A stretch of 39,760 bases of DNA from Clostridium sp. (GTDB lineage Bacteria; Bacillota; Clostridia; Lachnospirales; Lachnospiraceae), in the NCBI GenBank assembly GCA_023664775.1, contig JAMPEW010000029.1:1-39760 (forward strand). Direction: 5' to 3'. Shown one piece after another: positions 34,417-37,586 of this stretch. Positions within the stretch are counted from its first letter, which is position 1. Each line of letters starts with the position of its first letter. The notes below the pieces were generated by a model that searched no databases, was not told the DNA's origin, and saw nothing but the letters and a program-made list of their open reading frames with translations. The translations under genes and the position numbers were made by a program.

Positions 34417-35541
34417 ATGGCAGAAAACGTATTTAACGAAAAACAGGATTACTTGATAGGTGCCAGGAATGAGGTCGTAAAACGTGACAGTATGGCGTCA
34501 GAGCTTGATAAGATGAGGGCGCATCAAAAAAAACTCACGAAAAATATTGCGGCAGAGGAAAAGTCCATAGCTGACGAAATCACAGCTACACTGAAAAAGC
34601 GTAAGCAGGAAATATCAAATACCTATGATGAGAGATTGGACGATAACCGGGCACGCAAGAAAAAGGTATCCTCAAAGCGTGACAAAAAGAAAAACCAAAG
34701 AATAAATCAGCGTATAGATGATGAGACAAAGGATATTCATAAAAATACACGTGAGCTTGAGGTAGAGATGAAAACCTTATTTAAAAAAAATAAGGTTCCG
34801 TCATTTTGCTCCACCAAGCTTTACTATGTCATGTTTATGCCTAGAGGAATTGCAGAGGTATTTGGACTGCTGGGTTGTTTCCTGCTTTTCTTTGCAGGAC
34901 TTCCGGCAGGCATAACGGCACTTGTGAAGATATTTGTTTTAGATGAAAAAAAGGATATAAATGTAGCCTTTTGGTGCGTGCTGATTGCGGCATGTCTTGT
35001 TATATTACAGCTTGTCATTTATTTTGCACTGTACAATACAACTAAGATACGTCACAGTGATGTTATAAAGCAGGGCAGAAGCATACGAGACAAAATGAAG
35101 GCGAATGACCGTCAGGCAGATGCCATCAAAAACTCGATTAGTAAGGATAAGGACGAAAGTGCATACAATTTAGATGCATATGATGAAAAGCTTGCAAACC
35201 TTGATGCTGAGGCTGATACAATAGGAGCAGAAAAGCAGGAGGCATTAAGGGCATTTGAAGCAGATACCAGGCAGCTTATCATAGATGAGATAAACGGAAG
35301 ACGCCTCCAGACCGTTGAGGATATGAAGGCGGAAAAAAAGGAACTTGAGGAAAAAATTGCCAAGGGTGAAAAAATGTATTCGGATAAGGTTCTGCAGATT
35401 ACAAATCAGTATGCTTCGTATTTGGGTGAGGAGCTTTGCAGGGAGGATAAGCTCAGCGACCTCATAGCAATTATGGAGGAAGGGCAGGCAGCCACTGTTT
35501 CCGAAGCAATCAACCTCTATAAGGGTAAGACGCCAAAGTAG
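34417..35541 (+). CDS. coiled-coil membrane protein of unknown function
   Basis: This is a 374-residue protein. A long, highly charged N-terminal coiled coil (about 18-125, rich in Lys, Glu and Asp) precedes two adjacent membrane helices (about 147-170 and 184-207) separated by a short loop. A second charged coiled coil (about 215-325) and a small C-terminal helical tail follow. With both coiled coils on the same, probably cytoplasmic, side it could be a scaffold or assembly factor. I recognise no family. It is co-transcribed with the HD-GYP-like gene (three-base gap), so the pair may form one signalling unit. Its last 25 bases overlap the end of yyaC on the other strand. Confidence 0.75.
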   Translation: MAENVFNEKQDYLIGARNEVVKRDSMASELDKMRAHQKKLTKNIAAEEKSIADEITATLKKRKQEISNTYDERLDDNRARKKKVSSKRDKKKNQRINQRIDDETKDIHKNTRELEVEMKTLFKKNKVPSFCSTKLYYVMFMPRGIAEVFGLLGCFLLFFAGLPAGITALVKIFVLDEKKDINVAFWCVLIAACLVILQLVIYFALYNTTKIRHSDVIKQGRSIRDKMKANDRQADAIKNSISKDKDESAYNLDAYDEKLANLDAEADTIGAEKQEALRAFEADTRQLIIDEINGRRLQTVEDMKAEKKELEEKIAKGEKMYSDKVLQITNQYASYLGEELCREDKLSDLIAIMEEGQAATVSEAINLYKGKTPK

Positions 35542-36089
35542 CCAATGGAATGCTTTAAGGCGTCTGCGATACAGTTTGCCAATGTGACAACAGTATAAAG
35601 CCTTGTGCTTTGTAAAAGACCAGAGTGGTGACCTGAAATATTTACGATACCAGTGATAGATATATCCCCTATCGCTGGTAATTTTTTATTTACACCCTTG
35701 CCTGGCAAGATAGGGGTATTGCTGACTGTAATATGCCCTACATGACAGCCCTGCCCTAGGGCAGCGTCCACTGCAATGATAAATGGATTTTCAATCTTCA
35801 TATTTATCTCGCTTATTGTTTCCCGTATGTTTAAGGCGTGTACAGGAGTTTGCAGACAGCCCATTACCTTAATCCGGCTGTCATAATTTACAAGCTGGTC
35901 GCCCACAAGCGGACCAAGGCAGTCGCCTGTCGCCCTGTCTGTTCCGATACACAGTATAATTGGCGTGTAGCTTGAAATCAAATCCTCCGGCATAAGCTCT
36001 GAAATGAAATCCCCTAATTCTATATATGAATAGCTGTTTAATGTATCAAAATACTGCATTATTGCATTTTCCTGAAGAATATTGTTCAT
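35517..36089 (-). CDS. yyaC: spore protease YyaC
   Basis: This is a 190-residue YyaC-family protein, a sporulation protein related to the germination protease GPR. Family motifs are IILCIGTDRATGDCLGPLVGDQL, then VHALNIRETI, IIAVDAALG and GDISITGIVNISG with the SGLLQSTRL segment. The GTDR-TGD and VDAALG aspartates occupy the positions of the GPR aspartic dyad. The ATG at 36089 has AGAGG six bases upstream. It is predicted to be expressed during sporulation. The neighbouring intergenic region has a perfect Spo0A box. The 3' end overlaps the coiled-coil gene convergently. Confidence 0.9.
   Translation of the reverse strand: MNNILQENAIMQYFDTLNSYSYIELGDFISELMPEDLISSYTPIILCIGTDRATGDCLGPLVGDQLVNYDSRIKVMGCLQTPVHALNIRETISEINMKIENPFIIAVDAALGQGCHVGHITVSNTPILPGKGVNKKLPAIGDISITGIVNISGHHSGLLQSTRLYTVVTLANCIADALKHSIGYFGVLPL
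35528..35565. terminator. inverted repeat at the overlapping ends of the coiled-coil gene and yyaC
   Basis: AGACGCCAAAG (35528-35538) pairs with CTTT-AA-GGCGTCT (35553-35565), with AA unpaired. It lies across both stop codons. No T-run is present, so termination would be weak or Rho-assisted. Confidence 0.4.
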
Positions 36090-36189: not shown

Positions 36190-36196
36190 TGTCGAA
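36190..36196 (+). promoter_or_regulatory. Spo0A box (TGTCGAA)
   Basis: TGTCGAA matches the core 0A box exactly and sits in the 252-base gap between yyaC and the LysM gene, about 100 bases from yyaC and 145 from the LysM gene. A near match on the minus strand (TTCTGTCGCT, 36250-36241) lies 45 bases away. Confidence 0.45.
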
Positions 36197-36341
36197 ACAA
36201 AAAACAAATATAAAAAACATGCGATTGAAATTAAAGGGCAAGCGACAGAATTTGACTATGTAACGGTATGGGACATGCTATTCTCTCTTTATTACAGTAT
36301 GTAGCAATTGTCTAAAATAGTTTTAGAGAGAGGTGGAAGGA

Positions 36342-37586
36342 ATGATAGAAATCATCTATGACAAGTCAAAGGAAAAAGCGGAGAAGGAGGAAGAAAGCAG
36401 CAGGACTGTTGCAAATGACGACAGAAACAGTGATGCGAATGAAAACGCCGAAAATGTCAAGCTGCCGAAAAATATAAGACAAATAGGAAATCCCTGCGGG
36501 AATAAAAGAATTTACATAGAGGATTATGTCGTTACGTATCTTAATTATATATCAAGACCGGGAAGCACGCATGCGAGAGGGGCCATTCTGCTTGGAGAAA
36601 TGAAACATTCACAGGTAGGTGATATTGTATTTATAAGCGGGGCGGTGGATGCGCAGAATATTGAATTTGATATGGACGAGAGTAAATTTGACCAGGAGGT
36701 ATGGTCAGGGATATATGCGGAAATAAAGGAAAACTTCCCGGAGCTTTCCGTAGTGGGGTGGTTTCTATCAAGAATGGGTTTTTCCACTGCGGTAAATGAA
36801 AAAATAGAGAAAATGCACGTGGAAAATTTTTCGGGAAAAAATAAGGTTTTATATGTGACCGATTCCTTAGAATCAGAGGACGCATTTTATATGTATGAGA
36901 AAGGACAGCTTGTCAAGCAGAGAGGATATTATATATATTATGCGCAGAATGAGCCTATGCAGAGCTATATAATAAAGAAGAAAACGGGCATGGAGGAGGA
37001 GACAGACACAGAAATACACAGAAAGGACGAGGAGCTCATCAAGCAGTACCGTGAAAAAAATTCCCATGGAAAAGAGCCAAGGACTAATAATATCAGCCTT
37101 ATATATGTAGCAAGCTCATTTGTCGTATTGGTTATGCTTGCTATGGGAATAACTGTTATAAGCAATTATGATAAAATGAAGGAAATGGAAATATCCATTA
37201 ACAGGCTTGAGCTTACTGCAGATGCAAATGAGGATACGGTACAGGTGCTTGCCACAGAACAGAACGATAAAAATACTGAGGCAGAGCAAACTGTAACAGA
37301 TGCTGACAAAATGACAGCGGGACAGGCAGATATTGACACTGAAGCTGGAAAGCCTGCAGAAAACACAGAGGAGGATGTGACGAAAGAGCAGATACTTCCT
37401 GCAATGACGAACGGAAATCCTACCTATTATACGGTAAAGGCGGGAGATACGCTTTCCTCCATTGCTTACGAGGCATACGGTTCGGTTGTGTATGCCGAGG
37501 ATATTGCCAAGGCAAACAAAATGGATTTGGAGGATAACATATATGAGGGAGATGAAATATTACTTCCGGCAATTGACGCAAGATAG
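36342..37586 (+). CDS. membrane protein: inactive JAMM/MPN-like domain, TM helix, LysM domain
   Basis: The product is 414 residues from ATG 36342 (AGGTGGAAGG upstream; a GTG at 36333 is less likely). An acidic disordered start (1-45) is followed by an alpha/beta domain (about 55-212) that resembles the JAMM/MPN fold: YIEDYVVTYLNYI, GAILLGEM, ISGAVDAQN, VVGWFLSRMGFS (137-148), KVLYVTDSLESEDAFYMY and a closing YYIYYAQNE. The zinc motif GWxHSHPG of active deubiquitinase-type enzymes is replaced by GWFLSRMG, so catalysis is not expected. A charged linker, one TM helix (about 251-275), an acidic Thr/Glu-rich external stretch and a C-terminal LysM domain (about 366-412: YYTVKAGDTLSSIAYEAYG) follow. 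The MPN part would be cytoplasmic and LysM would bind peptidoglycan outside. It is first in a run with DUF5711 and CvpA genes. Confidence 0.78.
   Translation: MIEIIYDKSKEKAEKEEESSRTVANDDRNSDANENAENVKLPKNIRQIGNPCGNKRIYIEDYVVTYLNYISRPGSTHARGAILLGEMKHSQVGDIVFISGAVDAQNIEFDMDESKFDQEVWSGIYAEIKENFPELSVVGWFLSRMGFSTAVNEKIEKMHVENFSGKNKVLYVTDSLESEDAFYMYEKGQLVKQRGYYIYYAQNEPMQSYIIKKKTGMEEETDTEIHRKDEELIKQYREKNSHGKEPRTNNISLIYVASSFVVLVMLAMGITVISNYDKMKEMEISINRLELTADANEDTVQVLATEQNDKNTEAEQTVTDADKMTAGQADIDTEAGKPAENTEEDVTKEQILPAMTNGNPTYYTVKAGDTLSSIAYEAYGSVVYAEDIAKANKMDLEDNIYEGDEILLPAIDAR

Follow-up and report, generated by a model that had tools for sequence, protein, structure and literature searches.

Rpn11/CsRpn11 and BRCC36 are active JAMM deubiquitinases. 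Rpn8 and CSN6 are dead MPN subunits, found as scaffolds of the proteasome lid and of the COP9 signalosome, respectively, and pairing between MPN domains is common. Among LysM proteins, SipL of C. difficile is a sporulation protein; it is not known to have an MPN domain or a membrane helix. A bacterial JAMM peptidase, BilC of BilABCD, is described in the available text of PMC11354881 as part of an ISG15-like system. The literature searched, most of it open-access, gave no description of a JAMM/MPN-LysM membrane protein, nor of a JAMM protein linked with sporulation and peptidoglycan, and no earlier case of a pseudo-deubiquitinase in bacterial cell differentiation was found there. LysM is not mentioned in the part of PMC1779556 that could be consulted, and the corresponding part of PMC3482391 is unrelated to the JAB-LysM protein described here.

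The window, 39,760 nucleotides of DNA from a Clostridium sp. of the Lachnospiraceae, holds a gene (Table 1) whose product resembles each of these systems in part. Compared with Rpn11/CsRpn11 and BRCC36, the window protein has all five catalytic positions replaced and adds a membrane helix and a LysM domain, and its own genome has no match to a RING (PF14446, E up to 0.001) or an E2 (PF00179, E up to 0.01). Like Rpn8 and CSN6, it has an MPN fold without a metal site (best profile E values 0.028 for Rpn8 and 0.058 for CSN6), and the domain is probably a scaffold. Unlike them, it is bacterial and tied to the membrane. BilC is matched weakly (E 0.039) by an active relative (L132, 6171-7127); the window protein differs from BilC in its dead site, membrane helix and LysM domain, and as a whole it matched none of the PADLOC models at E up to 0.1. 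LysM is shared with SipL, from which an MPN domain and a membrane helix are not known. The order JAMM, transmembrane helix, LysM is shared with active JAMM-LysM proteins of other Clostridia (L112, L116, L129, L130 and L133); in contrast to the window protein, these have an intact E/HxH/S/D set and are clustered with genes for a ubiquitin-like protein (UBL), E1, E2-like and RING proteins.

Table 1. Positions in the window of the gene, its protein parts and its upstream sites
Feature	Position	Strand	Basis
Predicted Spo0A-activated promoter, CGACA-N3-TTTGAC-N22-TATTCT (CGACAGAATTTGAC-N22-TATTCT)	36243..36284	+	
Perfect 0A-box core TGTCGAA, intergenic	36190..36196	+	
Whole gene, 414 aa: pseudo-JAMM/MPN domain, transmembrane helix, linker, LysM	36342..37586	+	
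Pseudo-JAMM/MPN domain, about residues 42-212	36465..36977	+	
Position of JAMM catalytic Glu, here A78	36573..36575	+	
Position of HxH zinc ligands, here L142-S-R144	36765..36773	+	
Position of JAMM S-x-x-D, here N152 and I155	36795..36806	+	
Family motif N203xxM206xxY209, kept in the pseudo branch, other residues in active relatives	36948..36968	+	
Predicted transmembrane helix, about residues 256-274	37107..37163	+	hydropathy window
LysM domain, residues 363-409	37428..37568	+	PF01476, 33.4 bits (cut-off 20.9)
yyaC (spore protease YyaC, DUF1256), divergent conserved neighbour	35517..36089	-	TIGR02841, 167.7 bits

The earlier note had read a JAMM/MPN domain from four motifs, which were found in order at residues 80-87, 98-106, 137-148 and 169-175. 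Its proposed check by profile or predicted structure returned an MPN fold with the zinc site absent: the predicted structure gave that fold on fold comparison, and the family profile (76 proteins after removal of identical ones) matched the Rpn11-like 6fjv at E 3.3e-5. PF01398 was matched by 49 of the 76 members at E up to 1 (best 4.7e-7), the score of the window member alone being below the cut-off; no NCBIfam model matched the pseudo-MPN domain. By predicted fold and sequence profile, the window protein is a member of the JAMM/MPN superfamily. Chance resemblance to JAMM was considered and rejected on profile and fold. The whole architecture given in that note, a dead JAMM/MPN domain followed by a membrane helix and LysM, was borne out, LysM being present in 75/76 family proteins (E up to 0.01).

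The more positive flank of a membrane helix is normally cytoplasmic (the positive-inside rule). In this family the N side is the more positive flank in 59 of 76 proteins and the less positive in nine; for the window protein the charges are +1 on the N side and 0 on the other. Because of this bias the pseudo-MPN domain is predicted to be cytoplasmic, as had been suggested, and the outer half of the protein should grip peptidoglycan through LysM.

The zinc site of the window protein has been replaced. Alignment with active relatives puts A78, L142, R144, N152 and I155 at the positions of the JAMM metallopeptidase (MPN+) site, and the loss of both histidines (to L and R) noticed at first sight is thus confirmed. 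Both histidines together occur in none of the 76 sequences; Glu is kept in 23, the first His in ten and the second in one. Among 47 non-redundant members, the commonest residue at each catalytic column reaches at most 55%, as opposed to 98-100% for E60, D61, N203 and M206. Ten membrane-bound active relatives show the reverse: they are 100% conserved at the five catalytic columns and mostly differ at the columns of E60, D61, N203 and M206, where their commonest residues are K (0.3), Q (0.8), G (0.7) and I (0.9). A survey of the segment GWFxSRxG, proposed as a further check, found that GW is kept across the order and that the rest is not conserved; the strongly conserved columns lie elsewhere, in E60-D61-Y62 and in GYxxYYxxNxxMxxY. 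Judged from these residues, the domain is non-catalytic and its zinc site dead. Hydrolysis by another set of residues draws some support from three members of the order (L068, L072 and L074), where the sole change is Gln in place of the second His, E, the first H, S/T and D being retained. The window protein, however, has lost Glu, both His, Ser and Asp, and retained activity of this kind is very improbable. The state of those three looks like an early stage of site decay.

Active forms were found in other Clostridia. A draw across the class gave a match in 27 of 391 genomes, 17 of which lie outside the order, and 26 sequences were added to the alignment, five from the same family and 21 from beyond the order. 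The complete E/HxH/S/D set is present in 11 of the 26. One of these (L127) shows no membrane helix; the other ten, from six Clostridia genomes (6/391 of the class draw), each have a hydrophobic segment. Pfam JAB is above cut-off in all ten and LysM in five, so that the five proteins with the JAMM-helix-LysM order exceed both Pfam cut-offs. In five of the six genomes the active JAMM gene is clustered with genes for a YukD-like UBL, a ThiF-type E1, an E2-like protein and a RING protein; the contig of the sixth is 4.2 kb long and has a RING gene between two JAMM genes. For example, the cluster at L132 contains, by Pfam, YukD, ThiF, UQ_con (27.4 bits, cut-off 27) with FHA, and Prok-RING_1, and it also includes a trypsin-like protease. 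From their gene content these clusters are a putative wall-anchored deubiquitinase-like system. A 2011 study of prokaryotic RING operons may describe these UBL clusters. The clusters at L132, L133, L134, L135 and L137 each have UBL, E1, E2-like and RING genes and one or two membrane-bound active JAMMs, one with LysM; L136 has RING only.

In a quick tree without bootstrap (67 rows: 47 of the 76 after thinning at 60% identity, plus the 26 others, less six that were short, near-duplicate or masked), the branch of the window protein is one group (SH-aLRT 99), separate from the active rows. We infer that the pseudo form may descend from, or share an ancestor with, the membrane-bound active JAMM proteins.

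With such relatives, the domain might have lost hydrolysis and yet still serve at the membrane as a binding site for a UBL or for proteins tagged with one. The active relatives do sit beside YukD-like UBL, E1, E2-like and RING genes, and the dead eukaryotic subunits Rpn8 and CSN6 have stayed in ubiquitin machines. However, across 99 genomes of the order Prok-RING_1 reached E 0.001 in four and its cut-off in one, there in a fragment at a contig end, and UQ_con reached E 0.01 in one and its cut-off in none. These searches covered the RING and E2 models, and UQ_con is a weak probe here, since one operon E2-like protein scores only 27.4 against a cut-off of 27. A role as UBL receptor appears unlikely.

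At the locus, the gene is adjoined by yyaC in 60 of 79 loci, divergently in 57; the adjacency holds for 35/35 of the closest loci and 25/44 of the more distant ones. According to the available text of PMC9332280, the yyaC1 and yyaC2 promoters of C. perfringens are active during sporulation and at no other time; spore numbers are reduced in a yyaC1 mutant, and the spores of a yyaC2 mutant hardly germinate. Both yyaC and the pseudo-JAMM gene were absent from all eight DUF5711 loci examined in genomes without SpoIVA (tblastn, 1e-4). In four of the eight, from the genus of the window, leuA, an HD protein, a coil protein, DUF5711 and CvpA follow in order, some of the flanking genes being cut by the ends of the stretches. 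In one genome (G046) a RecR-like ORF, identified by eye, lies beside DUF5711, and L149 has yyaC and the gene between them. The coiled-coil gene of the window (34417-35541), whose product shows two hydrophobic segments on inspection by eye and matches no Pfam family above cut-off, stays in place in the four genomes whose locus lacks yyaC and the pseudo-JAMM gene.

The gene could be a passenger that tracks sporulation through the locus it shares with yyaC, the Spo0A-type sites serving yyaC. Their divergent linkage and joint absence are what this would give. Against it, 19 of the 79 loci carry the gene with no yyaC neighbour visible within the stretch examined, the protein sequence is kept throughout the order and has invariant columns, and the predicted promoter points at the window gene, with 57 bases between the end of its -10 and the ATG. 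We regard the passenger explanation as decidedly improbable.

That promoter lies in the intergenic region shared with yyaC, which is 252 bases long. Its pattern has one match in the window and none in 100 shuffles. Across the genus, the architecture occurs in 24 of 30 upstream regions (none in 200 shuffles), with a spacer of 22 bases in 19 and 23 in five, a count to be taken as a footprint and not as an independent test, the pattern having been derived from these same sequences, which are related by descent. Six of the 30 lack it, one of them (L030) only from a mis-set start. Over both strands of 31 loci, two of which (L001 and L002) are the same place, there are 26 matches, all at this site. 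In the spoIIG promoter of B. subtilis the spacer is 22 bases long and the boxes stand 10 bases from each other. In the same genus as the window, CGAC-N22-TATAAT was first noticed upstream of spoIIGA and then counted (L160-L189): 27 of 30 loci carry it, with a spacer of 22 bases every time although 18 to 26 were permitted. The other three are L178, whose single match falls outside the range, probably owing to a short left flank, and L186 and L187, which are short loci. The window upstream site resembles these spoIIGA promoters; the -10 differs, TATAAT at spoIIGA versus TATTCT at the window gene. CGACA is the reverse complement of TGTCG, and the 0A core is given in the available part of PMC3485338 as TGTCGAA, with contacts at G2, C4 and G5. 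C. difficile Spo0A binds the DNA upstream of spoIIGA weakly, according to the same part of that paper. We infer that the gene may be switched on early by Spo0A~P, like spoIIG. A lone TGTCGAA box was rejected as evidence, as the window has two and 3.5 are expected by chance. The spoIIGA pattern CGAC-N22-TATAAT is a usable signature for Spo0A targets.

The distribution of the gene follows sporulation genes. Against SpoIVA in the 99 genomes of the order, 78 have both, one the gene only, two SpoIVA only and 18 neither (96/99 agree). For the subset of 68 with a completeness of 90% or more, contamination not being filtered, the counts are 56, 0, 1 and 11 (67/68 agree; Fisher 7.8e-12). Agreement with Spo0A_C is 66/68 in this subset and 91/99 overall. 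The P values overstate the association because the genomes share descent; the absences are spread over several genera and families. Rechecking with the profile left all 20 gene-less genomes without a match at E 0.001, one having a match at E 0.244 that was taken as chance. The sole SpoIVA exception at this completeness (G063, 95%) has SpoIVA and Spo0A, and the gene was not found in it even by profile; the remaining two mismatches are genomes 67% (G056) and 83% (G095) complete. As a control, the downstream neighbour DUF5711 is kept in 11 of the 12 gene-less genomes that are at least 90% complete (Fisher 0.45). In the full set of 99, to which incomplete genomes contribute, 15/20 keep it and it is itself associated (Fisher 0.0034). 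DUF5711/CvpA was rejected as a functional unit with the gene on account of this retention in 11 of 12 and of its position downstream of the gene in 50 of 79 loci (scored by script, L012 counting as 'up' from a small overlap). According to the available text of PMC8340488, distinct lineages of gut Firmicutes have lost sporulation, in keeping with the gene's distribution. As the gene comes and goes with spore formation, it probably encodes an unrecognised sporulation protein. One copy (L035), its N-terminal part 77% identical to the window protein, comes from a record that bears the name Bacteroides sp. (MAG NALB_7821a_19); the gene is otherwise found in Lachnospiraceae, and that name is probably wrong.

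LysM proteins act in vegetative cells of many bacteria, and the protein might instead be a general wall sensor of growing cells, independent of sporulation, in which LysM reads the state of peptidoglycan and the pseudo-MPN domain relays it to a cytoplasmic partner. The earlier note had suggested such a transmission of wall state; the sporulation-like behaviour of the gene narrows that possible role. The architecture suits this, and so does the frequent position of the gene before DUF5711, which most SpoIVA-less genomes keep. Its absence from all 11 SpoIVA-less genomes at least 90% complete, its joint absence with yyaC where flanking genes stay, and the predicted Spo0A-type promoter make a general sensor an unlikely explanation.

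The reading preferred here, to which we give a probability of about 0.62, is that the gene encodes a sporulation membrane protein built on a dead JAMM/MPN domain, an early, Spo0A-driven docking protein tied to peptidoglycan. Spo0A~P would turn the gene on before or at asymmetric division. Outside the membrane, LysM would hold the protein on septal or forespore peptidoglycan, and the cytoplasmic pseudo-MPN domain would dock one or more sporulation proteins at that membrane, using the conserved EDY and GYxxYYxxNxxMxxY motifs and not the catalytic site. A second MPN protein of the same genome was tried as partner and rejected, since a search with PF01398 finds the window gene only, in contrast to what is known of Rpn8 and CSN6; a homodimer or some other partner is therefore more likely. 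A wider statement, that Lachnospirales spore formers recruited a dead Rpn11/Rpn8-like domain from a membrane-bound deubiquitinase of a bacterial UBL system and use it, driven by Spo0A, to tether peptidoglycan across the membrane to the cytoplasmic sporulation machinery, is tentative, and we would put it at somewhat less than even odds.

If true, this would be a new use of the MPN fold, in bacteria and tied to the wall through the membrane. For a dominant group of gut bacteria, which pass between hosts with the help of their spores, the protein would also be a new early sporulation factor. The comparison has brought to light active JAMM-LysM proteins of other Clostridia that are anchored in the membrane and encoded beside ubiquitin-like operons, and with these the step from peptidase to structural protein is open to study in living species.

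Other states of the site were seen among the added sequences. Three related membrane proteins (L122, L124 and L125) have SYSTHPDVHPTEQD, with the second His and the Asp kept and the first His lost; no LysM motif was found in them by script. L114 and L115 (at L138 and L139) are intermediate, with HTC for HTH, the remaining JAMM residues kept and a transmembrane helix present, and no UBL, E1, E2 or RING gene was found in their stretches. A second dead branch (proteins L119, L120 and L121, at L141, L142 and L143) has GWYGVR in place of GWxHTH, followed by a transmembrane helix and a LysM-like C-terminus; FliD-like ORFs, identified by eye, lie some kilobases from these genes.
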